A stretch of DNA of 64,000 nt from Melioribacter roseus P3M-2 (GCF_000279145.1 NC_018178.1:2462001-2526000), one strand, 5' to 3'; positions 29,597 to 62,838 are shown, counted from the first letter of the stretch. A program made the numbers and translations. Notes: a model not told the origin generated them from the sequence alone.

Positions 29597-29606
29597 AAAA
29601 AGAATT

Positions 29607-30524
29607 ATGAACCAGTCATCGGATTTGAAATTATCGGAGTTCAGAAAAAGCCTGGGTAGCGTGCTTCCTAAGCAAATGACTATGTCCCTTCCGTTATTTC
29701 AGGAAATACGGAAATATATATATGAAAGTACGGGAATCTATTTCCAGGACAACAAAAAATATCTTCTCGAAAGCAGACTCCAACGACGTATAAATTATCT
29801 GGGGCTCAACAGTTTCGAGGAATATTTTTCGCTTCTAAAACGGAATTCAAATCCTGAAGAGAAAAGATATTTTTACGAAGCTATCACAATCAACGAAACT
29901 TTTTTCTTCAGGAATCAGCCTCAGCTCGACGCCATGGCGTCGAAAATATTCCAGGAAATTATTAACAATAAAAAATTCCAACCCGGTTTGCTGCCTCACC
30001 AGAGAAATAAAATTAGAATCTGGAGCGCGGCAAGTTCTTCCGGAGAAGAAGCCTATTCGATCGCTATGGTGTTTCACGATTTGATTCAACCGAAATATCC
30101 CGACGTAACTCTTGAAATAGTCGGAACGGACATAAACACAAGCGTTGTGGAAACGGCAAAGGAAGGAGTATACAAAGAATATTCGATACGGAATATCCCC
30201 CCTTATTATCTCAAAAAGTATTTTAAGATAAACGGCAATTCGTACGAAGTGGTGCCGGAAATTAAAAAGTTTGTTTCTTTTAAAGTAATGAATCTTTACG
30301 ACGACATTATGATGCGCACGATGACGGGATTCGATGTAATTTTTTGCGCCAACGTTTTAATTTATTTCGATACGGCTTCGAAAATAAAAGTGGTTTCTCA
30401 TTTATATAATTCTTTGAACCGCGGAGGATATCTTTTTATCGGATATTCCGAAACGCTGCAGGGAATTTCGAAAGCATTTAAGCTGGTTAGTTTTCCTAAA
30501 ACTGTTGGATATAAAAAGGAGTAG
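29607..30524 (+). CDS. cheR: Chemotaxis protein methyltransferase CheR
   Basis: A 305-residue protein. A short N-terminal extension of about 30 residues precedes the CheR helical domain (IRKYIYESTGIYFQDNKKYLLESRLQRRI) and the SAM-dependent methyltransferase domain with ITINETFFFRNQPQLD, IWSAASSSGEEAYSIAM, IVGTDINTSVV and VIFCANVLIYFD. It methylates glutamates of chemoreceptors. It sits between the HEAT-repeat gene and the first receiver gene. Confidence 0.95.
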   Translation: MNQSSDLKLSEFRKSLGSVLPKQMTMSLPLFQEIRKYIYESTGIYFQDNKKYLLESRLQRRINYLGLNSFEEYFSLLKRNSNPEEKRYFYEAITINETFFFRNQPQLDAMASKIFQEIINNKKFQPGLLPHQRNKIRIWSAASSSGEEAYSIAMVFHDLIQPKYPDVTLEIVGTDINTSVVETAKEGVYKEYSIRNIPPYYLKKYFKINGNSYEVVPEIKKFVSFKVMNLYDDIMMRTMTGFDVIFCANVLIYFDTASKIKVVSHLYNSLNRGGYLFIGYSETLQGISKAFKLVSFPKTVGYKKE

Positions 30525-30532
30525 TTAAATAA

Positions 30533-30898
30533 ATGAAACGAGTAATATTAGTAGCGGACGATTCTCCTACTATCAGAAAGTTTGTAAGCGTTGCGTTAAG
30601 TACGAAAGGCTACGAAATTATTGCTTGCGCCGACGGTATGGAAGCGCTGGAAAAATTGCCCGGCAATAAAATCGATCTGCTCATAACCGACCTTAATATG
30701 CCGAATATCGACGGTTTCCAGTTAATAAAATCGATTAGGGAAAACGAGGAGTATAAAGAACTTCCGATAATCGTATTGTCTTCGCTGGGAAGCAGCGAGG
30801 ACATACATCGCGGTCTGGAATACGGAGCCAATTCGTATTTAATAAAACCGTTCGACCCCAAAAGAGTTTTATATGAAGTTTCAAAATATCTGAATTAG
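30533..30898 (+). CDS. CheY-like single-domain response regulator (first copy)
   Basis: A 121-residue receiver domain only: VADDSPTIRKF supplies the acidic pocket, D53 in LLITDLNMPNIDG is the phosphoacceptor, and LIKPFDPK gives the conserved lysine. It may serve as phosphate sink or as an alternative motor or adaptation output next to the second CheY. It follows cheR by 8 bp. Confidence 0.92.
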   Translation: MKRVILVADDSPTIRKFVSVALSTKGYEIIACADGMEALEKLPGNKIDLLITDLNMPNIDGFQLIKSIRENEEYKELPIIVLSSLGSSEDIHRGLEYGANSYLIKPFDPKRVLYEVSKYLN

Positions 30899-30909
30899 GA
30901 GTAATAAAA

Positions 30910-31287
30910 ATGGCACTAAAATTCTTAGTTGTAGACGACTCTGTTACCATGAGGAGAATTGTTGCAAATTCTCTCAAATCAATCGGGTACGAAAATTTCG
31001 TCGAAGCCAGCGACGGCAAAGAGGCTCTGACGAAATTGAATTCCGACGACACAATCAATTTCGTAATTACCGATTGGAACATGCCGGAGGTTTCGGGACT
31101 GGAACTCGTTAAAGCCATCCGTTCCGACGAGAAGAAACAATCGATCCCGATTCTAATGGTAACTACAAGAGGATTGAAAGAAGATATTCTCGAAGCCCTG
31201 CAGGCAAAGGTGAACAATTATATTGTAAAACCTTTTACTCCTCAAATACTTCGCGAAAAAATAGAACAAATTTTAGCCAGCGCTTAA
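30910..31287 (+). CDS. cheY: Chemotaxis response regulator CheY (second copy)
   Basis: A 125-residue receiver. LVVDDSVTMRRIVANSLKSIGY, D55 in FVITDWNMPEVSGLELVKAIR, and YIVKPFTPQILREKI closely follow the classic CheY pattern, more so than the preceding copy. When phosphorylated by CheA it should bind FliM and change motor rotation. A good GGAG precedes the ATG. Confidence 0.94.
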   Translation: MALKFLVVDDSVTMRRIVANSLKSIGYENFVEASDGKEALTKLNSDDTINFVITDWNMPEVSGLELVKAIRSDEKKQSIPILMVTTRGLKEDILEALQAKVNNYIVKPFTPQILREKIEQILASA

Positions 31288-31300
31288 TCAGAGGTAAATA

Positions 31301-32089
31301 ATGGAAAATAAACTCAGTATGGAACAGGTATTCGAGAAATTAGGGGACTTGAAGCAATTTTTCATCTTCGGTCAGAAAATTGTCCCGCTCTTCAAAAAGA
31401 TAATCGATTTTATGACCGATATAGTCCCGCTTCTCGAAAATGTAAACAATTCGATTCAGGATACAACGAGTAAAATTCCGAAAGCCGCTCATCAAATCAG
31501 CAGCGTTACGAGCGCAACGGAAATTGCCACGAGTGAAATTCTCGACATTGTCGATTCGATGTCGAATGATATGATAAAGATTAAAAACGAACTGAGCGAT
31601 TTGAAAAACGGTTTTCTCAATCAACGAGTCGCTCTCGACGCATTCGCTCAAAAAGCAACCGGTTTGAACGGCGAGTTGGATGAATTGAAATCCAATCTAA
31701 GCATCGACGAGCTTGAGAAAAAAGTAATTTCGCTCGAGGAAGTAATCAATAAAATTGAGTTGGACGCGACAAATATAACAATTTCTTTGCAGGTTCAGGA
31801 TATTACGGCGCAGCAACTCGCTTCGGTCAATCATCTGATCCATTCCGTTCAGGATAAATTATCCTCTCTGTTAATCGATTTTAATCGACAGGACGGGGTA
31901 GTTCTGCCCGAAACCGAAGCTCCTAAAGTTGATCCTAAAGCATTCAACCCGGACGCAAAATACGACAGAAGCGAAAGTCATCAGTCCATAGCCGATCAAC
32001 TTATCGAGCAAACGAAAAAACAAAACAATGACAACGGCAGCAAAGCGTCACAGGAAGAAATAGACAAACTTTTTCGGAACAATGGCTGA
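31301..32089 (+). CDS. cheZ: CheZ-like CheY-P phosphatase with FliM-like C-terminal motif
   Basis: A 262-residue helical protein. LQVQDITAQQL contains D167 and Q171 with the D-x3-Q spacing of the CheZ active site (D143/Q147 in Escherichia coli). A long coiled region precedes it, as in CheZ. The last residues read ASQEEIDKLFRNNG, nearly the same as the N-terminal CheY-binding helix of FliM in this window ([10 protein letters not shown]). The protein should bind CheY-P through that tail and dephosphorylate it. It overlaps cheA by 8 bp. Confidence 0.82.
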   Translation: MENKLSMEQVFEKLGDLKQFFIFGQKIVPLFKKIIDFMTDIVPLLENVNNSIQDTTSKIPKAAHQISSVTSATEIATSEILDIVDSMSNDMIKIKNELSDLKNGFLNQRVALDAFAQKATGLNGELDELKSNLSIDELEKKVISLEEVINKIELDATNITISLQVQDITAQQLASVNHLIHSVQDKLSSLLIDFNRQDGVVLPETEAPKVDPKAFNPDAKYDRSESHQSIADQLIEQTKKQNNDNGSKASQEEIDKLFRNNG

Positions 32090-33908
32090 TACAACACAAA
32101 ACCCAATGCTCGTAGACCCGGAGATGAAAGAAATTGTCGACAGCTTTTTGCTGGAGACAAAAGAAATTCTTGAAAATCTCGACGTCGACTTGATGGAACT
32201 CGAAAAATCTCCGGAAGATCTTGACCTCTTGAACAAGATTTTCAGGTCTTTTCATACCGTCAAAGGAACCTCCGGCTTTTTAGGTCTTGAAAAATTACCG
32301 GAAGTCACTCATAAATGCGAAGATATTCTGAATAAATTAAGAAAAGGAGAAGCAAAGCTTACCACCGAATTGATGGACGGCATTCTTCTCGGCTTCGACA
32401 CTATCAAAGAATTGCTCGTAAAAATCGAAAACGATAAAAACGAAGACGTAGAAGTCGATAATGTAATTAACGTTTTACAAAGTCTTCTGGCGGGAATAAG
32501 TTCTGAATCTTCGCAGGACGCGCCCGATACTCCCGTTCAAAACGAAGATAAATCGAGCGCACCGGCGGACCAACCGGTTGAACAAAAAGAAAACAATATT
32601 ACCGCAGCCGGAGATAACGCGCCAAAAGAAGATGTCCCTAAAGAAACTGATCAACCCAAAAAAGTTGCCATGCCCAAATCGGCACCCAAGACGGAACCGA
32701 AAAAAGCGGATAACACCATTCGCGTCGAAGTAGAGCGACTCGACGCTCTCTTGAATATTGCTTCGGAATTGGTCCTGGGACGCAACAGGCTTACTCAGGT
32801 TAATAACCAGTTCGCTCTCGAGTATGAAGGAACCGGTTATGCAAAAGACCTTGCCGACGCAACCAAGCAAATCGATCTGATGACCACAGAGCTGCAGCTT
32901 GTGGTTATGAAACTGAGAATGATCAAGATAGGCAAGGTGTTCAACAGATTCCCGCGTCTGGTGAGAGATTTGTGCAAAGAGTTGAATAAAGAAGTGGAAT
33001 TGAAAATCTTCGGCGAGGATACCGAAGTAGATAAGAACCTGATTGAAGAAATTAACGATCCTCTTGTGCACTTGATTCGTAACTCCGTCGATCACGGAGT
33101 CGAAAAACCCGAGGCGCGCGAGGCAGCCGGCAAGCCGCGCAGAGGGACTGTTATTCTTTCTGCCGAACACGAAGGAAACAATATAGTTATTACAATCGAA
33201 GACGACGGCAAAGGAATCGATCCGGAAGTTATTAAAGACAGAGCCATTAAAAAAGGATTTCTTTCGCCCGAAAGAGCAAAAGAACTTTCAAAGCAAGAAG
33301 CATACAACTTGATATTTCATCCCGGGTTTTCGACCGCCGAACAGGTCAGCAACGTCTCCGGACGAGGCGTCGGTATGGATGTGGTCAAAACAAACGTTAC
33401 AAAACTTAGAGGCACAATAGCGGTTGAATCGGAAGTGGGCAAAGGAACCAAAATAATTCTACGCCTGCCCCTGACGCTTGCTATTATTTCCGGTATGATT
33501 GTCGAAGCATGCGGTCAAAAATTGGTTATTCCGCTTCATTCGGTTATCGAGGTAATTAGAGTAAATAAAGAACAAATTGAAACCGTAAGAGGCCGAGAGG
33601 TAATAAATCTGAGAGATACCGTTCTCCCGATTGTCGGACTCGACGAATTAATTAACCATTCGGGCAACGGAAACGGCAATGAAAAACAATGGCAGTATAT
33701 TGTTGAAGTGGGTATTGCCGAAAAGAGATTCGGCATTAAAGTGGACGACCTCGTCGGCCAGCAGGAAGTTGTAATCAAATCGTTAGGCAATTATCTCGGC
33801 AAAATCGACGGTATTGCAGGCTCGACGATTATGGGCGACGGAACGGTTGTAATTATTCTTGATATTAACGAATTATTCAACAAAATGGAAAAGCGGTTAG
33901 ATGCATAA
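32082..33908 (+). CDS. cheA: Chemotaxis histidine kinase CheA
   Basis: A 608-residue protein. The P1 Hpt domain has FRSFHTVKGTSGFLGL with H58. An acidic, proline-rich linker (about 130-210) follows with no recognisable P2 CheY-binding domain. Then come P3 (IRVEVERLDALLNIASELVLGRNRLTQ), the P4 ATPase (LVHLIRNSVDHGVE, DDGKGIDPE, GRGVGMDVVKTNV) and the P5 CheW-like domain. It phosphorylates CheY and CheB in the receptor array. No cheW or receptor gene is in the window, so those must be elsewhere. Confidence 0.95.
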   Translation: MADTTQNPMLVDPEMKEIVDSFLLETKEILENLDVDLMELEKSPEDLDLLNKIFRSFHTVKGTSGFLGLEKLPEVTHKCEDILNKLRKGEAKLTTELMDGILLGFDTIKELLVKIENDKNEDVEVDNVINVLQSLLAGISSESSQDAPDTPVQNEDKSSAPADQPVEQKENNITAAGDNAPKEDVPKETDQPKKVAMPKSAPKTEPKKADNTIRVEVERLDALLNIASELVLGRNRLTQVNNQFALEYEGTGYAKDLADATKQIDLMTTELQLVVMKLRMIKIGKVFNRFPRLVRDLCKELNKEVELKIFGEDTEVDKNLIEEINDPLVHLIRNSVDHGVEKPEAREAAGKPRRGTVILSAEHEGNNIVITIEDDGKGIDPEVIKDRAIKKGFLSPERAKELSKQEAYNLIFHPGFSTAEQVSNVSGRGVGMDVVKTNVTKLRGTIAVESEVGKGTKIILRLPLTLAIISGMIVEACGQKLVIPLHSVIEVIRVNKEQIETVRGREVINLRDTVLPIVGLDELINHSGNGNGNEKQWQYIVEVGIAEKRFGIKVDDLVGQQEVVIKSLGNYLGKIDGIAGSTIMGDGTVVIILDINELFNKMEKRLDA

Positions 33909-34992
33909 CATTTCGGTTCTTGTGGTAGACGATTCCGCTTTCATGAGAAAATCGATTTCTCTGATGCTTGAAAGCGACCCTTCGATTAAAGTGGTGGCTG
34001 CCGCGCGTAACGGCGAGGAAGGCGTCGAGCTGGCTCGGAAATTACGACCCGACTTGATTACGATGGATATCGAAATGCCCGTTATGGACGGTTTGACGGC
34101 GCTTAAAAAAATTATGGAGACCGCTCCCACTTCGGTAATAATGATAAGTTCTTTGACGACCGAAGGAGCCGAAGCCACAATCAAGGCGATGGAATTGGGA
34201 GCAGTCGACTTTATTCCGAAAGAACTTTCGTATGTGAACGTTAATATCGGCAAAATAAAAGAAGACCTGATTTCCAAAGTCAAAGAGATTACTCGCCATA
34301 AACTTATCGCCTCCCGTTTAGAACGCATTCGCAATATAGAAAAAAGAAAACCCGTTTATACCTCCGCGAAAGATTTGCCCCAAATGCATTATGCCGCGCT
34401 GTCGATCGGTATCTCGACCGGCGGTCCTCTTTCCCTTCAGAAAATTATTCCGAAATTGTCGGGAAGTATAAATATACCGGTCTTTATCGTTCAGCATATG
34501 CCGCCCAAATTTACAAAATCACTGGCAGACAGACTCAATTCTTTGTCGCAGCTCGAAGTCAAAGAAGCCGAAAACGGCGAATTGGTCAGAGGAGGAGTGG
34601 TTTATATTGCGCCGGGCGGTCAACATATGAAATTGAAAAAAGTAAGCAACCTGAATTATACGATTGATATTACCGCGGAACCGGCTAATACGCTGCATCG
34701 TCCATCTGTCGACGTTACAATGACGTCCGTTATAGAGCATTATGGAAAAAATACTCTTGCAGTTATTATGACGGGTATGGGCAAAGACGGGCTCGAAGCC
34801 GTCCGCCTATTGAAATCTAAAGGCGGCGTTGCAATTGCTCAGGACGAAGATACCTGCGTCGTCTACGGTATGCCGAAAGCTATTGTAGACTCGGGACTTG
34901 CGGATTTGGTTTTACCGCTCGAAAAAATACCAGAAACAATAAACGGAGCTTTAGTAAATGGAAAAGAATCAGTTCGAAGATATAGTAATTAA
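33901..34992 (+). CDS. cheB: Chemotaxis protein-glutamate methylesterase CheB
   Basis: A 363-residue protein. The receiver domain has D56 in LITMDIEMPVMDG, followed by a linker and the methylesterase domain with S172 (IGISTGGP), H199 (VQHMPPKFTKSLADRLN) and D296 (TGMGKDGLEAV) as the catalytic triad. It removes receptor methyl groups and may deamidate glutamines. It overlaps cheA by 8 bp and the following small gene by 35 bp. Confidence 0.95.
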   Translation: MHNISVLVVDDSAFMRKSISLMLESDPSIKVVAAARNGEEGVELARKLRPDLITMDIEMPVMDGLTALKKIMETAPTSVIMISSLTTEGAEATIKAMELGAVDFIPKELSYVNVNIGKIKEDLISKVKEITRHKLIASRLERIRNIEKRKPVYTSAKDLPQMHYAALSIGISTGGPLSLQKIIPKLSGSINIPVFIVQHMPPKFTKSLADRLNSLSQLEVKEAENGELVRGGVVYIAPGGQHMKLKKVSNLNYTIDITAEPANTLHRPSVDVTMTSVIEHYGKNTLAVIMTGMGKDGLEAVRLLKSKGGVAIAQDEDTCVVYGMPKAIVDSGLADLVLPLEKIPETINGALVNGKESVRRYSN

Positions 34993-49100: not shown

Positions 49101-49475
49101 ATGAGTGAAAATATCAACAATCCCGACGCTATGGAAAACCAGGAAGATAGCTTTACAGCCTCACTGGCTCAGTTCGACGAATTCGACGACTCCACCCGTA
49201 CCCTGGGCGGAGCCGACGAAAAACTGAATCTGTTGAAAGACCTCCAGATGAACGTCTATATCGAATTGGGACGAACACAAATGCAGATTAAAGATATTCT
49301 CGAGCTCGAAAGAGGTTACGTTATAGAACTGGAAAAATTAGCCAGCGAACCGGTGGACGTTTTCGTCAACAATAAAAAAATAGCCGAAGGCGAAGTCGTG
49401 GTAATCGATAAACATTTCGGCATAAGAATAACATCGTTGGTTGACCCTGCGCAAAGAATAAAGGATATCTATTAA
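49101..49475 (+). CDS. fliN: Flagellar motor switch protein FliN
   Basis: A 124-residue protein with a flexible N-terminus and a SpoA domain: [63 protein letters not shown]. This is the classic FliN pattern. It completes the C-ring and docks FliH. The last base of its stop is the first of fliO. Confidence 0.96.
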
Positions 49476-49822
49476 TGTCGGCCTTCGATATTACACAGGC
49501 TTTACTGCCGCTAATCCTTGTAATTATGATTCTGGGCATAACGCTCTACTTCGTAAAACGCTATACGTTTACGATGAAGGGCGGCAAACGAATGCCTTTG
49601 AAAATTGAAGTGCTTAGCAACCAGCTTATAATGCCCAAAAAATATCTATCGATTGTGCGAGTGGAAGATAAAATTATGCTGCTCGGAGTAAGCGAAGCGG
49701 GAATTACTTTAATAAAAGAGTTCGACAGTATAGACCTTCCGGACAATAACGAAACCCAGAACGGCGATAATCAGAAAAAATCTTTTTATGAATTGCTCAA
49801 GCAGAATTTAGGAATGCGATGA
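49475..49822 (+). CDS. fliO: Flagellar export component FliO
   Basis: A 115-residue protein with one N-terminal membrane span (ALLPLILVIMILGITLYFV) and a cytoplasmic domain (IEVLSNQLIMPKKYLSIVRVEDKIMLLGVSEAGITLIKEF) matching FliO/FliZ. It helps assemble the FliP ring of the export gate. It overlaps fliP by 4 bp. Confidence 0.88.
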   Translation: MSAFDITQALLPLILVIMILGITLYFVKRYTFTMKGGKRMPLKIEVLSNQLIMPKKYLSIVRVEDKIMLLGVSEAGITLIKEFDSIDLPDNNETQNGDNQKKSFYELLKQNLGMR

Positions 49823-52724: not shown

Positions 52725-54788
52725 ATGAAACTGTTCGGGAAAAATAGCGATATTTTACTGGCATTCGGTTTGATACTGATGCTCGGTTTAATGTTGATTC
52801 CTTTGCCGGCGTCGTTTCTCGATTTTCTCCTTTCGTTAAATATTACGCTTGCTCTACTCGTGCTAATTGTATCGTTATACATACAATCTCCGCTCGATAT
52901 TTCTGTGTTTCCGGGACTTCTGCTCGTGCTTACTTTGTATCGCCTGGCTTTGAATATATCGTCTACGCGTCTGATATTAATTGACGGTTTTGCCGGTCAG
53001 GTTATCGAATCGTTCGGATCGTTTGTGGTCGGCGGCAATTATGTGGTCGGTTTTATAGTGTTTATTATTCTTGTTGTAATTCAGTTTATAGTAATCGTAA
53101 AAGGCTCCGGCAGAATTTCGGAAGTGGCTGCGCGATTTACGCTGGACGCTATGCCGGGTAAACAAATGGCCATAGATGCGGATTTGAATACAGGTTTAAT
53201 AACCGAAGCCGAAGCAAGAAAAAGAAGAGCCCGTATAGAAAGAGAAGCCGAATTTTACGGCGCTATGGACGGCGCGAGCAAATTCGTAAAAGGGGACGCA
53301 ATTGCGGGATTAATTATCAATGCGATTAATATCGTCGGAGGTTTTGTTATCGGCGTAGCTCAGAAAGGTATGTCGTTTCAGGACGCAGTCCAAACTTATA
53401 CGATTTTAACGATTGGAGACGGACTTGTTTCTCAAATTCCCGCGCTTTTGATTTCCACCGCCGCCGGTTTGGTCGTTACCAGAAGCGCATCCGGCACCGC
53501 TCTCGATTTTCAAATGAAAAGCCAATTGTTTTCCAATCCGAGAGTGTTGGCTACGGTGTCGGGAGCCGTGTTCCTCTTTGCATTCATACCCGGTATGCCT
53601 ACGATTCCTTTTCTTATCTTAAGCGGAGTGCTCGGCACATCATCTTATATGAACAAAAAAGGAGTAACGTCCGAAGCGGTAATTGAAGAAACCGATGGCG
53701 AAGAACCGAAAGACGAAGAATCGAAACCGGCTGAAGAAAAAGTTGAACAATATCTGCAAGTCGACCCGATAGAAGTTGAAATCGGCTACGGTTTAATTAG
53801 TTTAGTCGACGAAAAACAGGGCGGTAATTTATTCCAGAAAATATCTTCTACAAGAAAGGTAATAGCCCTTGAATACGGAGTATTGATACCGCCCGTTCGC
53901 GTTAGAGACAATCTGCAGCTTTCGCCGAATGAATATGTAATCAAAATTAAAGGGAACGTAGTCGCAAGCTTTGAATTGTACCCCGACAGATACCTGGCGA
54001 TGAATCCCGGCGTTACCGAAGAAGAATTATCGGGAATTCCGACAAACGACCCCGCCTTCGGTCTGCCGAGTTACTGGATAACTCACGAAGAAAAAGAAAA
54101 AGCGGAAATGCTCGGATATACTGTCGTCGATGCAATCTCCGTTCTTGCTACGCATTTGCAGGAATCGCTCAAACGGAATTTCGACAAAATACTTTCGCGC
54201 CAGGAAGTAAAACAATTGCTCGAAAATTTGAAGAAAGAATACCCGGCGGTTGTCGAAGATATCAATCCGGACATCCTCAATCTAGGTATGATTCAAAAAG
54301 TGCTTCAAAATCTTTTGAAAGAAGGAATCCCGATAAAAGATTTTGTGAGAATTCTCGAAGCGTTAATCGATTATTCCAAAACCACAAAGAATATCGACGT
54401 ATTGACCGAATATGTGCGACACACAATCGGCGATACAATAGCCAATTTATACAAAGATTCGAACGGAATAATCCACGCCGCAGCATTGGGCGAAAATTTG
54501 GAAACCATGATTACTAAATCGCTCCAGGCTCAAAAAGACAGTATGATAACGCTCGGTCTTTCAACTGAAGTGTTGCGCGAACTCAATATCAGAATTCAAC
54601 AGGAAGTTGAAAAATTCAACAACATGGGATATCCTCCAATCATTATAACTTCGGCGGCAATCAGACCCTATTTTTACCGTCTGGTCAATTCGAGTTTTCC
54701 CGACCTTGTATTGCTTTCGTATAGCGAATTGCCGTCAAACGTAGAAATCGAATTTATCGGAAAAGTAGAGGTGGGTAATGCAAATTAA
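52725..54788 (+). CDS. flhA: Flagellar export gate protein FlhA
   Basis: A 687-residue protein with about eight spans in the first 320 residues and a cytoplasmic substrate-docking domain. The FHIPEP region (ALNISSTRLILIDG, GRISEVAARFTLDAMPGKQMAIDADLNTGLITEAEARKRRARIEREAEFYGAMDGASKFVKGDAIAG) is complete. It overlaps flhF by 11 bp. Confidence 0.96.
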   Translation: MKLFGKNSDILLAFGLILMLGLMLIPLPASFLDFLLSLNITLALLVLIVSLYIQSPLDISVFPGLLLVLTLYRLALNISSTRLILIDGFAGQVIESFGSFVVGGNYVVGFIVFIILVVIQFIVIVKGSGRISEVAARFTLDAMPGKQMAIDADLNTGLITEAEARKRRARIEREAEFYGAMDGASKFVKGDAIAGLIINAINIVGGFVIGVAQKGMSFQDAVQTYTILTIGDGLVSQIPALLISTAAGLVVTRSASGTALDFQMKSQLFSNPRVLATVSGAVFLFAFIPGMPTIPFLILSGVLGTSSYMNKKGVTSEAVIEETDGEEPKDEESKPAEEKVEQYLQVDPIEVEIGYGLISLVDEKQGGNLFQKISSTRKVIALEYGVLIPPVRVRDNLQLSPNEYVIKIKGNVVASFELYPDRYLAMNPGVTEEELSGIPTNDPAFGLPSYWITHEEKEKAEMLGYTVVDAISVLATHLQESLKRNFDKILSRQEVKQLLENLKKEYPAVVEDINPDILNLGMIQKVLQNLLKEGIPIKDFVRILEALIDYSKTTKNIDVLTEYVRHTIGDTIANLYKDSNGIIHAAALGENLETMITKSLQAQKDSMITLGLSTEVLRELNIRIQQEVEKFNNMGYPPIIITSAAIRPYFYRLVNSSFPDLVLLSYSELPSNVEIEFIGKVEVGNAN

Positions 54789-55872
54789 GAAATTCGTCGC
54801 GCCTACATTACGCGAAGCCAAAGAACAAATGAAAAACGAACTCGGCGGCGATGCCATTATTCTGGGCACAAGGGTAATCGAAAACGACAGAAGATTCAAT
54901 TTCAGGAAAATGTTTGAAATTACCGCGGGAGTGGACGAAGAAATCAAGAAAACTCCCTCGTTCGACGAACCGGTAAATGAAAGTGTCGATATCGATGTTG
55001 AATTGTCCAGGCTTACGCAAAAAATATTCGAAGCCAAAGAAAATAAAAAAGTTGCCGCGGAAGATGTGGTTACCGAAGCAAGAAAACTAACAATGACACA
55101 ATTGGACGAATACCTGGAAAAATTACTCGACCTGGAAATTAATCGCCAGCTGGCTAAAGAATTGGTTGAACAATTGAAGAATTACGACGGTCTGCTTGGC
55201 GAAGCGAATCTGGAAAATTATCTGATTGCCGGAATGGCTTCGATGATTCCTACAAAGGAATTCAAAGTAAAAAAGAACCGCAATACAAAAGTGGCGCTGG
55301 TAGGACCGACCGGTGTAGGTAAAACTACCTGTATAGCCAAGTTGGCCGTTATATCGAAGATTATTCATAAACTTAAAGTAGGACTGATTTCGATCGATAC
55401 ATATCGTTTGGGAGCTATAGATCAATTGCGGATATTTTCTGAAATAAGCGACATTGAAATGAGCGTGGCATACGAACCCTCCGACATGCCGAAGCTGATT
55501 AAAAAATTCAAAGATAAAGACCTGATTTTCATCGACACGGTCGGCAGAAGCCAGAAAAACAGGGAGAATTTGAATAAGATTAAAGAATATCTCGACGCGG
55601 CTGAAGTAGACGAAACGATTTTGGTAGTTAGCGCCACAAGTTCTATGCGTACGCTCTCCGATGTAGCCGAGAGATTCAAAGTTCTCGATTACGGTTCGGT
55701 GATCTTTTCGAAAGCCGACGAAGCCGTTACTTACGGCAATATTTTCAATCTGGCGAATAAATTCAATCTGCCCGTAATGTTCCTTACGAACGGTCAGGTT
55801 ATACCCGACGATATTTTATCGGTCAATCCCGAATATCTTGCAAACGTAATTTATAAAGGGAAACTCTACTGA
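54778..55872 (+). CDS. flhF: Flagellar biosynthesis SRP-type GTPase FlhF
   Basis: A 364-residue protein: an N-terminal basic region (MQIKKFVAPTLREAKEQMKNELGGDAIILGTRVI), an N domain, and a GTPase domain with the P-loop GPTGVGKTT (176-184), SIDTYRLGAIDQLRIFSE and FIDTVGRS. FlhF sets the place, often polar, where flagella are built. The flhG partner follows in an overlapping TGATG junction, which favours a polar or lateral-count-controlled flagellum. Confidence 0.95.
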   Translation: MQIKKFVAPTLREAKEQMKNELGGDAIILGTRVIENDRRFNFRKMFEITAGVDEEIKKTPSFDEPVNESVDIDVELSRLTQKIFEAKENKKVAAEDVVTEARKLTMTQLDEYLEKLLDLEINRQLAKELVEQLKNYDGLLGEANLENYLIAGMASMIPTKEFKVKKNRNTKVALVGPTGVGKTTCIAKLAVISKIIHKLKVGLISIDTYRLGAIDQLRIFSEISDIEMSVAYEPSDMPKLIKKFKDKDLIFIDTVGRSQKNRENLNKIKEYLDAAEVDETILVVSATSSMRTLSDVAERFKVLDYGSVIFSKADEAVTYGNIFNLANKFNLPVMFLTNGQVIPDDILSVNPEYLANVIYKGKLY

Positions 55873-56732
55873 TGAACGATCAGGTAAAACGTCTGCTGGA
55901 ATTACGACGCCTTCAAAATAACAGGGAGGGGAAAACCGCTCTTGTAGTCTCGGTATGTTCCGGCAAAGGCGGAACCGGCAAGTCGTTTGTTTCGCTGAAT
56001 CTTGCATATAAACTTGCGCGGCTAAATAAAAAAGTTCTTGTCGTCGATTTCGATTTCAATTTATCGAATTTGCATTTGCTTTTGAATGAAACCGTCAGGG
56101 AACCGCTCTCCGATTTTTTCAATCAAAAAGTAACTTTCGACGAACTGATCTACAGATATAACGATAATCTGCATTTGATTTTCGGCGATTCCGGCAGCAA
56201 CAATTTTCCCAAAATTACAAACGATCTTATCGAATATTTCTTTATCCATCTTGAAAAAGCCTCGCGAAATTACGACTTTGTTTTTATCGACTCGGCTGCG
56301 GGAGCCGACTCGAATACGATGTATCAAATCAGCCGGTCGGATTTGAATTTAATCGTTGCGTCGCCGGAACCGACTGCGATAATGGACGCATACGTACTGA
56401 TAAAACTGATTACCGAGCAAAGCGTCGATAAACGTTACATGAACATGCCCGAAAACATTATAATTATCAATAAAGCGGACGACAAAGAAGAAGGCGAGCA
56501 GGCATTCCAGAATTTGAGTACCGCCGTTCGGCATTTCCTCAATAAAGAAATTATGCTCCTTGGCGTTATCGGGCACGACAGAACCGCATATAAATCGATT
56601 ACCAACCAGGAACTGCTGGTTGAACACTATCCGAATTCGATGGCAGCCCTTCAGATAGACGACCTTGCAAGACGCTTCCTGAATATTGCACAGATGGCTA
56701 ATAATAGCCAGTTTCTTAACCAAAAATCCTAA
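55872..56732 (+). CDS. flhG: MinD-like flagellar number regulator FlhG
   Basis: A 286-residue ParA/MinD ATPase. The N-terminal helix NDQVKRLLELRRLQ fits the FlhF-activating DQ-x3-LR element. The deviant Walker A is KGGTGKS (residues 32-38), and LVVDFDFNLSNLHLLLNE and FVFIDSAAGADSNTMYQISRSDLNLIVASPEPTAIMDAYVLIK follow. It limits flagellar number through FlhF, and in sigma-54 systems the homologue FleN also restrains the FleQ-type activator. The dyad for the next operon lies inside its last codons. Confidence 0.94.
   Translation: MNDQVKRLLELRRLQNNREGKTALVVSVCSGKGGTGKSFVSLNLAYKLARLNKKVLVVDFDFNLSNLHLLLNETVREPLSDFFNQKVTFDELIYRYNDNLHLIFGDSGSNNFPKITNDLIEYFFIHLEKASRNYDFVFIDSAAGADSNTMYQISRSDLNLIVASPEPTAIMDAYVLIKLITEQSVDKRYMNMPENIIIINKADDKEEGEQAFQNLSTAVRHFLNKEIMLLGVIGHDRTAYKSITNQELLVEHYPNSMAALQIDDLARRFLNIAQMANNSQFLNQKS
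56695..56710 (+). promoter_or_regulatory. Upstream dyad of the fliA operon (best copy of the motif)
   Basis: TGGCTAATAATAGCCA: two perfect 6-bp arms around ATAA. It lies within the last codons of flhG. Its centre is 60 bp upstream of the -24 GG of the fliA-operon promoter. Confidence 0.75.
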
Positions 56733-56803: not shown

Positions 56804-57031
56804 ATGATGAACAAAATAATAATGCAATTCGGATTACTCGTTTTCTTCTTCTCCGTAATTTATTTTGTTCAAAAAGGACTCGACGTTACGCGGGTAATAC
56901 TGAATTCCCTTTCGATATTTCTCCTTTTGACCATAATGTTAAGCTTCGTCGCTATCAGTTTAATTAAAGCCATCAATCGTAATTCGTTGGAAAAAATAAA
57001 AGAACCATCGGGAAAAGACAGTAATGAATAA
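56804..57031 (+). CDS. Small two-span membrane protein upstream of fliA
   Basis: A 75-residue protein with two hydrophobic segments (about 8-26 and 33-56) and a short charged tail. AGGAGAG precedes ATGATG. It is the first gene of the operon and overlaps fliA by 8 bp, so it is probably translated with it. No family is recognised. A stator-, sigma-factor- or envelope-related role is possible but unsupported. Confidence 0.75.
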   Translation: MMNKIIMQFGLLVFFFSVIYFVQKGLDVTRVILNSLSIFLLLTIMLSFVAISLIKAINRNSLEKIKEPSGKDSNE

Positions 57032-57659
57032 AAACGAATATTTATGGGAATCCTTCAAGGCGCATCCTTCGCCTGAATTGAAGAAGAAGATTATTCTCAA
57101 TTACATCAATCTTGTCCATTATGTAATCCACAAGACTAATCTCAACCAAAGCGAATTATTCGACAGAAGAGATTTTTTCCAATTCGGTATCGAAGGCTTG
57201 AGCGAAGCCATCGACCGTTTTGACCCGGATTACGGGACAAAGTTCGAAACTTATGCAATTCAAAGAATACGCGGCAAAATTTACGACGAAATTCGAAAAT
57301 ACAGCCATAAATACGAGATGATCGGCGAACCCGAGCCGGTCACCACAAGCAGCAGCGGAACGGTTTCGCTCAACAGCAATTATATCGAAGAAGAAGGTAT
57401 GCAAATGTATGAAATGATGGCCGACGACAGCGAAGAGCCTCTGCAGATTCTCGAAAAGAACGAGATGAAAGAACGATTAGTCGAAATGATCAAACAATTG
57501 AGCGACCGCGACAGAATGATTATTACTCTCTATTATTACGAAGAACTCAATTACCAGGAGATTGCAAAGGTTCTCAATATTACTGTATCGCGCGTCTCTC
57601 AGTTGCATTCTAAAATAATGAAAATACTCAAACAAAAACTTTCTGAAAAAAATGGTTGA
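57024..57659 (+). CDS. fliA: FliA-like sigma-28 factor, short form without clear domain 3
   Basis: A 211-residue sigma-70-family protein. Region 2 (YINLVHYVIHKTNL...DFFQFGIEGLSEAIDRFDPDYGTKFETYAIQRIRGKIYDEIRKYSHK) and region 4 (RLVEMIKQLSDRDRMIITLYYYEELNYQEIAKVLNITVSRVSQLHSKIMKILK) match FliA/SigD/WhiG. Between them lie only about 55 acidic, Ser-rich residues, with no sign of the helical region 3.0-3.1 (typical FliA is about 240). It should transcribe late flagellar genes, which are outside the window. Confidence 0.85.
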   Translation: MNKNEYLWESFKAHPSPELKKKIILNYINLVHYVIHKTNLNQSELFDRRDFFQFGIEGLSEAIDRFDPDYGTKFETYAIQRIRGKIYDEIRKYSHKYEMIGEPEPVTTSSSGTVSLNSNYIEEEGMQMYEMMADDSEEPLQILEKNEMKERLVEMIKQLSDRDRMIITLYYYEELNYQEIAKVLNITVSRVSQLHSKIMKILKQKLSEKNG

Positions 57660-58524
57660 ACAGGGAACATCCGAAATCAAGGAAAGGATACGGAAGCAGC
57701 TATCGGGAATAGGCAATATACCGGCTGTTCCGCAGGTTATTGCAGAGGTTTCCAATATGCTCGATAATGAGATGACCAGCGCGTCGGACCTTTGCAGAGT
57801 TATATCGAGGGATCAGGCGCTGGCCGCCAAAATTTTGGCGGTTGCAAATTCGCCTCTCTACGGTTTGCCCCGCAGGGTTTCAACTATAGAATTTGCAGTC
57901 GTAATTATCGGCTTCGATCACATCAAAAACATTCTTCTGGCTCTCTCGCTGCTCGATACCTTCAAAGTAAGAAACGCGAAAGATTGGAATCATCAGGAAT
58001 ATTGGCGTCATTCCATTCTGACCGCTACCGGCGCCAAAAGAATTGCGGACGATCTGCGATACCCGAAGTCGGGCGAGGTTTTTACCGTCGGTCTGTTGCA
58101 CGATCTGGGACTCGTAATTTTATATAAATATATGAATTACGATTACAAACAGATAATGGAATTGGTCGATAATCAGGGCTTGAGTTTTCTGGAAGCGGAA
58201 AATAAAGTGCTCGGATATACGCACAGTCACATTGCCGAGTTCCTGCTGGAAAAATGGAATTTCCCCAGGAATATAATCGATGCAGTCGTAAACCACCATA
58301 CGCCCTCGGAATCGGAATTTAGTCCTGTCCTCAGTTCGCTGGTCCATTTGACCGATTATATGACGCAGAAATTCGAAATCGGGACTTTTATGTGCGACGA
58401 CAATATGCCTCTGGACGAAAATATTCTCGAAATTCTTCAATTCGGAAATATGGAATATCTGGAACAATTTATGGAAAGCTATAAACCTTTATTTAATCAA
58501 CATTTTGAATCACTAAACAGATAA
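57652..58524 (+). CDS. HDOD-domain protein (first of a pair)
   Basis: A 290-residue single-domain protein. LSGIGNIPAVPQVIAEVSNMLDNEMTSASDLCRVISRDQALAAKILAVANSPLYGLPRRVSTIEFAVVIIGFDHIKNILLALSLL is the HDOD core, and TVGLLHDLGLVILYKY keeps an HD pair. HDOD proteins usually lack phosphodiesterase activity and act as signalling adaptors, some in polar flagellum control. It overlaps fliA by 8 bp and is 5 bp before its paralogue. Confidence 0.9.
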   Translation: MVEQGTSEIKERIRKQLSGIGNIPAVPQVIAEVSNMLDNEMTSASDLCRVISRDQALAAKILAVANSPLYGLPRRVSTIEFAVVIIGFDHIKNILLALSLLDTFKVRNAKDWNHQEYWRHSILTATGAKRIADDLRYPKSGEVFTVGLLHDLGLVILYKYMNYDYKQIMELVDNQGLSFLEAENKVLGYTHSHIAEFLLEKWNFPRNIIDAVVNHHTPSESEFSPVLSSLVHLTDYMTQKFEIGTFMCDDNMPLDENILEILQFGNMEYLEQFMESYKPLFNQHFESLNR

Positions 58525-58529
58525 GAGCA

Positions 58530-59411
58530 ATGAACACAATAGTATTCGATCAGGCGCAAAAGAGGGAACGTACACAACTGGTATTGAAAAGAGTTACAAC
58601 GCTCTCGCCGGTGCCAAAAATCCTTTCGGAAGTTCTGGAATTATTAAAAGACCTGAATACAAGTCCACAAAAACTTGCTAAAGCTATCGCTAAAGACCAG
58701 AGTATAGTGGTCAAAATTCTTACGATAGCCAACTCGCCGTTTTACGGACTTGCCAAAAGGGTTTCGTCCATCGAATATGCCATTATGATTCTGGGTTTCA
58801 ATGAAATCAGAAATATTGTAATGGCGCTTTCGCTGATGGAAACGATGAAAAACAAAAGCGATGAATATATGAACCAGAAAGATTTCTGGCTTCATTCGTA
58901 TATAACCGCCACGACGGCAAAAAAGATTGCCGACGATATGAACATTCGTGAAAGCAACGACGTTTTTATCGGCGCTCTTCTTCACGATCTGGGCATCTCG
59001 GTAATCCATCGCTATATGCACTCGGATTTCGTTAAAATTAAAGAGAGCGTGGAAAAAGGTTCGAAATATTCCGAAGCCGAAAATCAGCAACTCGGTATGG
59101 ATCATCAAATGGTAGGTTACAGCCTTCTGCGCAATTGGAATATCCCCGAGCATATCTGCGATATGGTAAGGTACCATCACAATCCCAATCAATCGACAAA
59201 TACGAAAATTCTCTCGTCGATAATTCATCTGAGCGATTACATGACGCAAAAACTCGATATAGGAAAATTCGATTGGGACAACGACCTTGAACTCAATCCG
59301 GAAGCCGCTACAATTCTCCAGTTCAAGGATATTAATGAAATTGAAGAGTTTATTGAAAGTTACAGGGAACCAATTTCATCACAAATAGATTCACTGAGGA
59401 ACCTGCTTTGA
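58530..59411 (+). CDS. HDOD-domain protein (second of a pair)
   Basis: A 293-residue paralogue of the preceding protein, with the same order of motifs: VTTLSPVPKILSEVLELLKD, ISIVVKIL-type DQSIVVKILTIANSPFYGLAKRVSSIEYAIMILGFNEIRNIVMALSL, and FIGALLHDLGISVIHRYMHSDF. The pair clearly arose by tandem duplication. It ends in TTGA, overlapping the TTG start of the GAF/kinase-like gene. Confidence 0.9.
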   Translation: MNTIVFDQAQKRERTQLVLKRVTTLSPVPKILSEVLELLKDLNTSPQKLAKAIAKDQSIVVKILTIANSPFYGLAKRVSSIEYAIMILGFNEIRNIVMALSLMETMKNKSDEYMNQKDFWLHSYITATTAKKIADDMNIRESNDVFIGALLHDLGISVIHRYMHSDFVKIKESVEKGSKYSEAENQQLGMDHQMVGYSLLRNWNIPEHICDMVRYHHNPNQSTNTKILSSIIHLSDYMTQKLDIGKFDWDNDLELNPEAATILQFKDINEIEEFIESYREPISSQIDSLRNLL

Positions 59412-60718
59412 GAGTTATTAAAGACAATACCGCGCGATTCGAATCGTTTTCGAAATCGCTTCAGTACTATACGAAAGGAAATTCCTCCGGGGATTTTCAA
59501 CTGATTAATATCGAAACTCATCGTTCGAGAAATAATCTGTTCGAAAAGTATAATTACATTGTCCAGTCGTTGTATACTTTTCAGAAAAAATTTGCGGGTC
59601 TAAAAAATATCGACGATATCCACTTCTTGTTCAGTCATCACGTCAAAATGATAATTTCTTCCAAGGAAGTCGATCTGTTCCTGTTCGACGACTCGCGCAC
59701 GATCTTGAAATCGGTAAGCTCGAAATCTTCCGCGCTCCAGAATAATCTGGTAAACAAAGCTTTTAAGAACGGTATATTGGACTGGATATTCGAGACTCAG
59801 AAGCCGACGCTCATTCCGGATTTGAGCTCGATTACAGGCGAAGGCTCCAAATTGTATCAAACTATATTTCCTGTTTATTATCAAAAAAATCCGGTAGGCG
59901 TGGTATCGCTTTTGGGTCCGGCTTATAAAATTTCGGAGGATTCGCTCGAAAATCAGGCTATCTATATTCTATTGAGCGCCGTAATACCTCAAATTATTTC
60001 GATACAGCAAAAAAACAAAATAAACAAGCTTTACGACGACTTACAAACTTACGAGTCGAAACTTAATAATGATTTCAAACTTTACGCCGTCGGAGAATTT
60101 GCCGAAGGTATCATTCACGATATGCTCAATTCGCTGCAGGTTATTCTCAGCAACGTCGATTATATCGAAAGTCTAAATACCGGCGTGGATACCGAGATAT
60201 TCGAAAAAATAAGGGAACGCGTCGAAAGGCTCAGCGGGCTGTCCCAAAAACTCTTCAAATTCAACGAAATAAATCAGAATGGCGGCAAACAAAATCTGCC
60301 GTGCGATCTTAATAACCTCGTCAAAGAATTCTACGGCGTTGTTACGGCAACGCTCAAAAGCCTCGAACTCGAATGCGAACTTGACCTCGAAGACAATATA
60401 CCGCCCGTGCTCGGAAACTCAAAAGAGATTAAACAAATTCTTACGAATATCTTTTCGATGATTAAGAAGAAATCGAACCGGGGCAGCGGTATTGTTATTC
60501 AAACCAAGTATATAAACGAGGTTATAGTTCTCTCGGTATTTGTTACCGATTATTGGGAAGATTTCGGCGAGTCGAGCGATTATATATCGAATCTCACAAT
60601 AAAAATAGTCGGCGAATTGATGAAAAAATGCGACGGCAAAATCGAATACGATTCAATGCCTCTTAAAGGCACTTCAATTCATTTGTTGTTCCCATTAAAG
60701 AGGAAGTTAACAAAATGA
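59408..60718 (+). CDS. GAF-domain protein with histidine kinase-like, probably degenerate, catalytic region
   Basis: A 436-residue soluble protein from a TTG start. A GAF domain (about 65-200, DIHFLFSHHVKMIISSKEVDLFLFDD...PVYYQKNPVGVVSLLG) is followed by an HisKA-like helix with AEGIIHDMLNSLQVIL (H237) and an ATPase-like fold with N-box-like KEIKQILTNIFSMIKK. The G1 box (DxGxG) is replaced by VTDYWEDFGESSDY and no GLG motif is seen, so ATP binding is doubtful. It may be a pseudokinase partner of the HDOD proteins. Its stop overlaps the next start (ATGA). Confidence 0.8.
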   Translation: MRVIKDNTARFESFSKSLQYYTKGNSSGDFQLINIETHRSRNNLFEKYNYIVQSLYTFQKKFAGLKNIDDIHFLFSHHVKMIISSKEVDLFLFDDSRTILKSVSSKSSALQNNLVNKAFKNGILDWIFETQKPTLIPDLSSITGEGSKLYQTIFPVYYQKNPVGVVSLLGPAYKISEDSLENQAIYILLSAVIPQIISIQQKNKINKLYDDLQTYESKLNNDFKLYAVGEFAEGIIHDMLNSLQVILSNVDYIESLNTGVDTEIFEKIRERVERLSGLSQKLFKFNEINQNGGKQNLPCDLNNLVKEFYGVVTATLKSLELECELDLEDNIPPVLGNSKEIKQILTNIFSMIKKKSNRGSGIVIQTKYINEVIVLSVFVTDYWEDFGESSDYISNLTIKIVGELMKKCDGKIEYDSMPLKGTSIHLLFPLKRKLTK

Positions 60719-61302
60719 GAACTCTGATTGCAATACTGATCCTTTTGTACGGATTGCCCGTCCGGGCGCAGAGCGACAGTCTATCGCTTCAGACGGAAAA
60801 TGAAATTACCGCTGAAGATTCGGTGAATGTAAGAGAACTCGTGGCTCAGCAAATTCTTATGGCTAAAATTAAAAACGAAAAGAAGGAAATTAAAGAACCC
60901 GATATTATTCAGACGGCGCCCGAATATGAAAACGAATCGCCCGTAGTCATAAAAAAGAAAAAGTCGGTTTATCAATTGTTTGTGGATCTGCCTTTCAACG
61001 TAAAACTGCTGATTTCCTTCTCGGCGTTTTTGTTCGCTCTTATCTTTATTCGAAGAGCCGTTCTTAAAGCGCAGCAAAAAGCCAGGAAGAAACTGAAAAT
61101 TAAAATCGGCATGATGAGAGAAGAAAAATTGCAGCCGACAACGGATATCCGGAGAAGTAAATTCAGAAAAGAATTATTGAGCAATCCCGTAATCAATAAG
61201 CTGAACGACAAAAATATCAATAAGAAAGCTAAGGAACTTAAAGTGGCGCAGGGCGAATTGATGCTCGCTGCCAGACTTAAATATTACGAGTTCCATAACT
61301 AA
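60715..61302 (+). CDS. Unknown membrane-anchored protein inside the flagellar operon
   Basis: A 195-residue protein with an N-terminal signal (TLIAILILLYGLPVRAQ), an extended hydrophilic region, one span (VKLLISFSAFLFALIFI) near residue 100, and a Lys/Arg-rich helical C-terminus. If the signal is cut, the N-terminal half is periplasmic and the basic tail cytoplasmic. No family recognised. It is 13 bp before flgF. Confidence 0.78.
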   Translation: MRTLIAILILLYGLPVRAQSDSLSLQTENEITAEDSVNVRELVAQQILMAKIKNEKKEIKEPDIIQTAPEYENESPVVIKKKKSVYQLFVDLPFNVKLLISFSAFLFALIFIRRAVLKAQQKARKKLKIKIGMMREEKLQPTTDIRRSKFRKELLSNPVINKLNDKNINKKAKELKVAQGELMLAARLKYYEFHN

Positions 61303-61314
61303 GGAGAAGTCGCA

Positions 61315-62025
61315 ATGATTAAAGGTATTTATTCGGTGGCAAGAGGAATGGTGCAAAGGTCTCAGAATATCGACATTATTGCCAATAATATTGCAAATAT
61401 TAACACCACCGCATATAAAAGGGAAATACCTTTTTCCGAATACATTAACGAAGCGGGAGAGGCTCAGTTCAAAAAATTAACGAGCATGCAGCAGGGCGAA
61501 ACCGTGCTTACATCCAATCCTCTCGACGTGGCAATTTCCGGAAGGGGATTTTTCATGATTAAAAACAGCGACGGTCAGTACGAATTGACGCGCGACGGAA
61601 GATTCCGTCTATCGGACGACGGATATATTGTGGACGGGAATGGGAATAAAGTCCAGGGTAAAAGCGGCGAAATTTATATGGGCGAATTGATCAGAAACAA
61701 GGACTCGGAAATTAAAATTTCCAACAACGGAGAAATCAGAGTAGGCAATCAGTTCATCGATACTATCCTTGTAGTGGATGTGGAATTTCCCGAAAGTTTG
61801 AGTCGTATCGGCGCATCGAATTTTTTGTTGGGAAATCAGCCGTTTAAGGAATTGAACGAAGACGACTTCAAACTTGCGCAGGGATATCTGGAAGAATCGA
61901 ATACAAATCCCATTCTGGAAATGGAAGCGATGATTGCGCTTAACAAATCTTATGAAACGTCGCAAAAAATTATAAACGCGCTTGATCAGTCGCTCGATCA
62001 CGCAAATCAAATTGGTAAAATATAA
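61315..62025 (+). CDS. flgF: Flagellar basal-body rod protein FlgF
   Basis: A 236-residue FlgE/F/G-family protein. ARGMVQRSQNIDIIANNIANINTTAYKREIPF at the N-terminus, SNPLDVAISGRGFFMIKNSDGQYELTRDGRF, and the C-terminal GYLEESNTNPILEMEAMIALNKSYETSQKIINALDQSL. It is the shorter of two adjacent rod genes and precedes flgG, the usual order for flgF. Confidence 0.9.
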   Translation: MIKGIYSVARGMVQRSQNIDIIANNIANINTTAYKREIPFSEYINEAGEAQFKKLTSMQQGETVLTSNPLDVAISGRGFFMIKNSDGQYELTRDGRFRLSDDGYIVDGNGNKVQGKSGEIYMGELIRNKDSEIKISNNGEIRVGNQFIDTILVVDVEFPESLSRIGASNFLLGNQPFKELNEDDFKLAQGYLEESNTNPILEMEAMIALNKSYETSQKIINALDQSLDHANQIGKI

Positions 62026-62037
62026 ACGAGGTAGACT

Positions 62038-62838
62038 ATGCCAACGAGAGCATTGAGAACTGCGGCATCCGGAATGTATGCGCAACAGATTAATATCGAA
62101 GTCATTTCGAACAATATAGCGAATATCAACACAACCGGTTTTAAGAAAAACCGAGCGGACTTCCAGGATTTGATGTATCAGGAAGTCAACATAAATCCGT
62201 TGACGAGTTCGACTCCGGGAATTTACGAAACGACGAATAATAAAGTTCAGGTGGGAAACGGAGTAAAGCCTGCATCCACTCAAAAAATATTCAAACAAGG
62301 CGACCTTGTAGCCACAAATAATCAGATGGATTTGGCAATTTACGGCGACGGATTTTTTCAGGTGCGCAAAAGCGACGGCGCTTTCGCCTATACTCGCGAC
62401 GGCTCGTTCAAGCTGAACGCCGACGGCAGAATAGTAACTTCGAGCGGTTACGAACTCGATCCCGGCTTTACGATCAATAACGACGTAGTAAATCTGATGA
62501 TTGCCAAAGACGGAACGGTCGAAGCCGAATTGGTCGACGGTTCGCGCGTTACTCTCGGCAGTATCGAAATTGCCCGTTTTATGAATAACGGCGGTTTGGT
62601 CGCTTTGGGAGATAATTTGTACGGAGAAACCCCGGCTTCAGGTCAACCGATACTCGGAACGCCGGGAGAAGACGGATTCGGCGAAATTCATCAGGGATAT
62701 CTCGAAACCTCTAATGTCGATATCGTCGAAGAAATGATTGCAATGATTGCAGCTCAACGGGCTTACGAAATCAATTCCAAAACCGTTAAAACGGTTGAAG
62801 ATATGATGACTATGGCAAATAATCTGAAGAGGGGATAA
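62038..62838 (+). CDS. flgG: Flagellar distal rod protein FlgG
   Basis: A 266-residue protein, close to the standard FlgG length. RALRTAASGMYAQQINIEVISNNIANINTTGFKKNRADFQDLMYQ and the C-terminal HQGYLETSNVDIVEEMIAMIAAQRAYEINSKTVKTVEDMMTMANNL are classic FlgG signatures. Forms the distal rod crossing the periplasm. Its last base overlaps flgA. Confidence 0.96.
   Translation: MPTRALRTAASGMYAQQINIEVISNNIANINTTGFKKNRADFQDLMYQEVNINPLTSSTPGIYETTNNKVQVGNGVKPASTQKIFKQGDLVATNNQMDLAIYGDGFFQVRKSDGAFAYTRDGSFKLNADGRIVTSSGYELDPGFTINNDVVNLMIAKDGTVEAELVDGSRVTLGSIEIARFMNNGGLVALGDNLYGETPASGQPILGTPGEDGFGEIHQGYLETSNVDIVEEMIAMIAAQRAYEINSKTVKTVEDMMTMANNLKRG

Follow-up and report, generated by a model that had tools for sequence, protein, structure and literature searches.

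Why do genes for two HDOD proteins, a kinase-like protein and a membrane protein lie between fliA and flgF in Melioribacter roseus P3M-2, a bacterium for which flagellar motility has been reported (PMC3534657)? The window, which is the whole stretch of DNA analyzed here, comprises 64,000 nucleotides (NC_018178.1:2462001-2526000) of a genome assembled as a single contig of 3.30 Mb. The four genes, as well as fliA and flgF, are all open reading frames on the plus strand. The fliA gene for a sigma-28 family sigma factor of 211 aa (57024..57659) overlaps by 8 bp with the gene of a first HDOD protein, HDOD1 (57652..58524; 290 aa), which is followed after a 5-bp gap by a second, tandem HDOD gene, HDOD2 (58530..59411; 293 aa). 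The gene of the kinase-like protein (59408..60718; 436 aa), which has a GAF-like region, a DHp region and a degenerate ATPase domain, starts with a TTG codon in a TTGA overlap with HDOD2, and the gene of a putative FipA/SwrB-like membrane protein (60715..61302; 195 aa) starts in an ATGA overlap with the kinase-like gene. Thus, the four genes and the junctions described in an earlier, sequence-only reading of this DNA are confirmed. The downstream neighbor is flgF (61315..62025, plus strand), encoding the proximal rod protein (TIGR02490, 4.7e-44, below the cut-off of that model), followed by flgG (62038-62838). On the upstream side, also on the plus strand, lie flhF (54778-55872, assigned by position and length), an flhG/minD-like gene (55872-56732), and a gene for a small membrane protein of 74 aa with two hydrophobic segments (56807..57031) between flhG and fliA. 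A chemotaxis gene group is found elsewhere in the window (28217-34989), with cheR, two cheY-like genes, a cheZ-like gene, cheA and cheB, and a gene for a HEAT-repeat protein (28217-29596) in front.

Is this arrangement peculiar to M. roseus? The gene order flhA-flhF-flhG-small ORF-fliA-HDOD-(HDOD)-kinase-membrane protein-flgF-flgG-flgA is shared by the order of M. roseus and families f4, f6, f9, f13, f17, and f18, and it was found in nearly all flagellated members of the class (Melioribacter and its kin). Given this class-wide recurrence, a chance arrangement is disfavored, and a local insertion or transfer of the four genes is ruled out. The term "insert", used in the sequence-only reading, is thus unsupported, while its idea of a conserved signaling unit linked to the flagellum has held up. 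When co-occurrence was assessed, the module was present in 27 of the 27 flagellated genomes of the order and in none of the 13 aflagellate ones (Fisher p 8e-11, with kinship ignored), and one genus (g6) includes both flagellated and aflagellate genomes. Here "flagellated" means that flgF is present in one sample and that flhA is present in the other; four genomes of the second sample (G414, G433, G441, and G476) were counted on the HDOD pair alone and not on the whole locus. One genome counted as aflagellate, G140, retains the genes from fliL to flhG (L103:3657-12984) and lacks fliA, the module, and flgF. This cluster represents either a partly decayed flagellar system or an incomplete genome. 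Because the cluster ends after flhG and flgF is absent, G140 was rejected as a case of a flagellated genome without the module.

In the class sample, an HDOD gene is linked to fliA or to the kinase gene in 47 of the 50 flgF-bearing genomes, as judged from loci or match coordinates, and no such fliA-HDOD pair was seen in the flgF-bearing genomes G071, G128, and G143. Nearly every flagellated genome in the order has the tandem HDOD copy. Some loci have extra ORFs between the membrane protein gene and flgF (L066:11391-12545, L068, L069, and L078:7133-8401); the extra ORF of L078 matches FliK (PF02120). Outside the class, the HDOD survey covered one phylum sample, in which the matches were far weaker, the best (1.8e-57) lying on a short contig where no FliA was seen.

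Both HDOD proteins match PF08668 over their full length with 202 and 187 bits, far above the cut-off of 22.9 (6.8e-60 for HDOD1 and 3.8e-55 for HDOD2). In HDOD1, residues H150, D151, H191, H215, and H216 are invariant among the operon orthologues and match the metal-ligand positions of HD-type proteins, and H120, another such position, is kept in at least 90% of them. The solved relatives of HDOD1 are 3hc1 and 1vqr (Cj0248). In seven HDOD proteins encoded beside fliA in families f4, f9, f13, and f18, a C-terminal sigma region 4 was found, and the profile used there also pointed to two more f9 loci. Such proteins are encoded directly 3′ of fliA at L054:6314-8439, L078:11351-12040, L079:7504-8577, L077:1708-2766, L061:7306-8472, and L080:6988-8154. 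Of the sigma models, those of NCBIfam for FliA/WhiG rank first or near the top on these proteins. Sigma region 4 is absent from HDOD1 and HDOD2 of the window. In several fusions, the recognition-helix segment differs from that of FliA, for example DEPAVAELHDRAV in L079 versus SESRVFQIHSAVL. Because of this departure, these fusions may act by mimicry and not by binding DNA. PhyR-type sigma mimics are also made of a signaling domain fused to a sigma-like part. The putative mimics differ from PhyR in that the signaling domain is an HDOD rather than a receiver, only region 4 is present, and the window has no such protein.

For the kinase-like protein, Pfam gives only sub-threshold matches to HisKA, HATPase_c, and GAF_2 (E 0.13 for GAF_2), and the nearest NCBIfam models are AtoS-type histidine kinases (6.7e-15). 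The TTG start is backed by relatives that start at the same residue (M-R/K-V/L/I-I-K). In an AlphaFold model (mean pLDDT 75, pTM 0.43), a GAF-like alpha/beta region (residues 87-170), DHp-like helices (180-289), and an ATPase-like domain (297-429) are recognizable, and Foldseek matches this model to sensor kinases (3e-14). The window protein has HDMLNSLQ, TNIFSMIKKKS, VTDYWE, and ISNLTI, whereas active kinases have HEIKNPLQ, LNLLINARDAM, DTGTGI, and GTGLGL. Thus, it retains the phospho-acceptor His and has lost G1, G2, and the Asn-Ala of the N box, and it is predicted to be inactive as a sensor histidine kinase. In families f4, f6, f9, f13, f17, and f18, the orthologues have all four boxes (H, N, G1, and G2) preserved. 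Based on these canonical orthologues in six families, the lost ATP-binding motifs, and the fold match, the window protein is assigned as a pseudokinase derived from a sensor histidine kinase, in agreement with the earlier description of the third protein as pseudokinase-like. All tabulated kinase-like proteins of the order (f1, f2, and f25) are degenerate, and among them the His residue is left only in M. roseus, nearly all of its relatives in the order having lost it. The tabulated orthologues of f12 and f20 are degenerate as well, and some f20 proteins retain parts of the ATP site. Together with the FliA tree, this pattern would be consistent with kinase activity having been lost two or more times.

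For the window sigma factor, the NCBIfam FliA/WhiG models are the best and cover most of its length (4e-45 to 3e-47, below the curated cut-offs); the operon context and the FliA tree support its assignment as FliA. A clear FlgM gene exists in the M. roseus genome (L102:11772-12032), close to the flagellin gene and fliD. Thus, the module would supplement the FlgM checkpoint, and the idea that it substitutes for a missing FlgM was discarded. The late genes at L102:8405-12032 comprise flagellin, a FliD-like gene, and FlgM, and a near-consensus sigma-28 site (TAAA-N16-GCGATAA) lies 5′ of the flagellin gene.

Does the module follow fliA or the rod genes? In the loci examined from more than 10 families, an HDOD gene lies directly 3′ of fliA. 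In f8 and f20, flgF is located elsewhere and the HDOD gene still follows fliA; in several f20 genomes, the kinase gene also follows fliA-HDOD. Six genomes of family f12 have neither flgF nor flhA, yet they keep the small ORF, fliA, and the HDOD gene. In the five f12 loci that are not cut by a contig end, a kinase-like gene and two receiver-like (REC-REC) genes follow the HDOD gene, and in the one f12 locus typed by Pfam, a gene for an NtrC-type sigma-54 activator lies upstream. The f12 cassettes (L056 and L084-L087) carry genes for a FlgM-like protein, an NtrC-type regulator, the small membrane protein, FliA, HDOD, a kinase-like protein, and receivers. The small membrane protein corresponding to 56807-57031 is retained with the cassette across the class, including f12. 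The f12 FliA is the sister of the FliA of the order in the tree (support 100/99), which is consistent with a cassette that has outlived the flagellum in f12. WhiG and the chlamydial sigma-28 factor are FliA-like sigma factors that are likewise kept without a flagellum; unlike them, f12 additionally has the FlgM-like, HDOD, and kinase genes.

The FlgM-like assignment in f12 derives from a class-specific profile, for which FlgM sequences from the class were used. With this profile, the small upstream genes, one in each of the five loci, took the first five ranks among 344 ORFs, mainly on the strength of about 30 C-terminal residues. The Pfam FlgM model gave no match reaching threshold in f12. 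In the same five loci, a match to the sigma-28 consensus TAAA-N15/16-CCGATAA starts 56-106 bp upstream of the FlgM-like gene. In the 3.7-Mb genome G051, this site is the sole intergenic exact match of the sigma-28 pattern; genome-wide enrichment of the pattern was not found in G051 (6 matches versus 12 for the reversed-pattern controls).

The membrane protein has a signal-like N-terminus, one transmembrane segment near residues 92-118 by hydropathy, and basic C-terminal helices with the motif KVAQGELMLAARL, in which E and L are invariant. It has no significant Pfam match, and its DUF2802 and DUF6115 scores are below the cut-offs. Its structure model (pTM 0.29) is too weak for a fold search. 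In other families, a protein of similar layout is encoded in the same slot between the kinase gene and flgF, and a profile-profile comparison of the window protein with these homologues gave a probability of 95% (E 2e-8). The f17 and f9 homologues match DUF2802 (1.6e-5) and DUF6115 (2.9e-7), and in two genomes, the f17 homologues exceed the DUF6115 cut-off (31-32 bits versus 27). FipA of Vibrio, a DUF2802 member whose gene lies downstream of flhA-flhF-flhG-fliA, recruits FlhF (PMC11620751). The window protein shares with FipA a single membrane pass, a C-terminal E...L motif, and a location downstream of flhA-flhF-flhG-fliA, and one f17 member has a G-x15-E-x2-L spacing like that of FipA G110/E126/L129. 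Two features set the window protein apart from FipA: the conserved G is missing, and the N-terminal stretch preceding the transmembrane segment is longer. SwrB, another membrane protein with a single pass, whose gene closes the fla/che operon of Bacillus subtilis, promotes hook secretion, and both hook assembly and the full activity of sigma-D depend on it (PMC4526659). The sequence link to SwrB is a weak DUF6115 match only, with the DUF6115 membership of SwrB itself presumed. Thus, the window protein, described as unknown in the sequence-only reading, is best called a diverged FipA/SwrB-like protein that stays below the curated scores. A candidate assignment as FliO was rejected; another small ORF (49475-49822) holds the usual fliO place before fliP. 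Because the protein is FipA/SwrB-like and was not seen in the aflagellate f12 cassettes, it most likely has a separate function in the same operon, in which it would serve FlhF or the export apparatus.

What may the module do? Judging from the gene neighborhoods and protein sequences, I consider that there is an even chance that HDOD1, HDOD2, and the GAF-like pseudokinase constitute a control cassette linked to sigma-28, with FliA or FlgM as its target and the membrane protein standing apart. Since the cassette stays with fliA even in relatives without a flagellum, its probable target is the sigma factor rather than the flagellar machinery. The kinase-like protein would sense a cue through its putative GAF domain and relay it to the HDOD proteins, by phosphorylation where the kinase is active and by a change of shape where it is a pseudokinase, as in M. 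roseus. The HDOD proteins would then set the amount of free, active FliA via contact with FliA or FlgM. On the other hand, the operon position can mean co-expression only, and HDOD proteins elsewhere influence motility by other routes (PMC11004494, PMC6543031).

Three other explanations were weighed against sigma-28 control. FlrB/FleS and FlgS are NtrB-like soluble flagellar sensor kinases, and the window kinase-like protein resembles them in being linked to flagellar genes. It might belong with FlrB and FlgS and have an NtrC-type sigma-54-dependent regulator, encoded elsewhere, as its partner; the HDOD proteins would be accessory outputs and the pseudokinase a leftover regulator. The canonical kinases of the six families, closest to AtoS-type kinases, and the NtrC-type activator and receiver proteins flanking the f12 cassette fit this scheme. 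However, no NtrC-type regulator was found in the scanned parts of the window cluster, no cognate regulator was seen alongside in flagellated genomes, and the protein is a pseudokinase in the order, where the loss of the ATP site would require another phosphodonor. I regard this scheme as unlikely. It is distinctly unlikely that the HDOD proteins are general adaptors of second-messenger signaling or RNA turnover, or phosphohydrolases, placed in the operon only for co-expression with motility genes. The conserved metal-ligand positions and the motility effects of HDOD proteins in Pseudomonas, Xanthomonas, and Campylobacter (PMC11004494, PMC6543031) accord with it, but the specific linkage to fliA, the sigma region 4 fusions, and the retention beside a FlgM-like gene in aflagellate genomes do not. 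SadB, GsmR, and C. jejuni Cj0248 are HDOD proteins with such reported effects (PMC11004494, PMC6543031); the window proteins differ from them in being tandem, in lying in the fliA operon, in being coupled to a GAF-like kinase or pseudokinase, and in having relatives with sigma region 4 fusions.

In the sequence-only reading, the four proteins might assemble into a single complex, detect a ligand, and act from the membrane on rod assembly, the motor, or FliA. A complex acting on the rod or motor would suit the close association with flgF that is seen in the order and several other families, and also the resemblance of the membrane protein to the hook-secretion promoter SwrB (PMC4526659). However, the HDOD and kinase genes remain with fliA where flgF is elsewhere, and they persist without flgF or flhA in genomes where the membrane protein was not seen. 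Among the targets proposed, FliA is thus favored, the rod and motor are not, and a complex acting on either of them is highly improbable.

In the open-licence literature, no description of the HDOD/kinase/membrane-protein unit was found, as the earlier reading had supposed. Each part resembles something known, but I found no account of their combination or of its survival where flagellar genes are absent. I tentatively propose, as a possibility short of probable, that HDOD proteins, together with a GAF-like kinase or pseudokinase, make up a so far undescribed class of sigma-28 controllers that bind FliA or FlgM, in some lineages as HDOD-sigma region 4 mimics. In such a class, the sigma factor would be freed by a signal and not by FlgM export, and the system could survive loss of the flagellum as an autoregulated circuit. 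Export of FlgM through the hook is the textbook route to free sigma-28. The f12 genomes lack flagellar genes and keep FliA, the FlgM-like protein, and the cassette; therefore, export is unavailable there, and f12 offers a direct way to look for a different control of sigma-28. In addition, the fusion to a FliA-like region 4 gives a concrete target for the widely distributed HDOD proteins. Finally, a canonical kinase decaying to a pseudokinase within one conserved operon is a good case for studying how pseudokinases originate.
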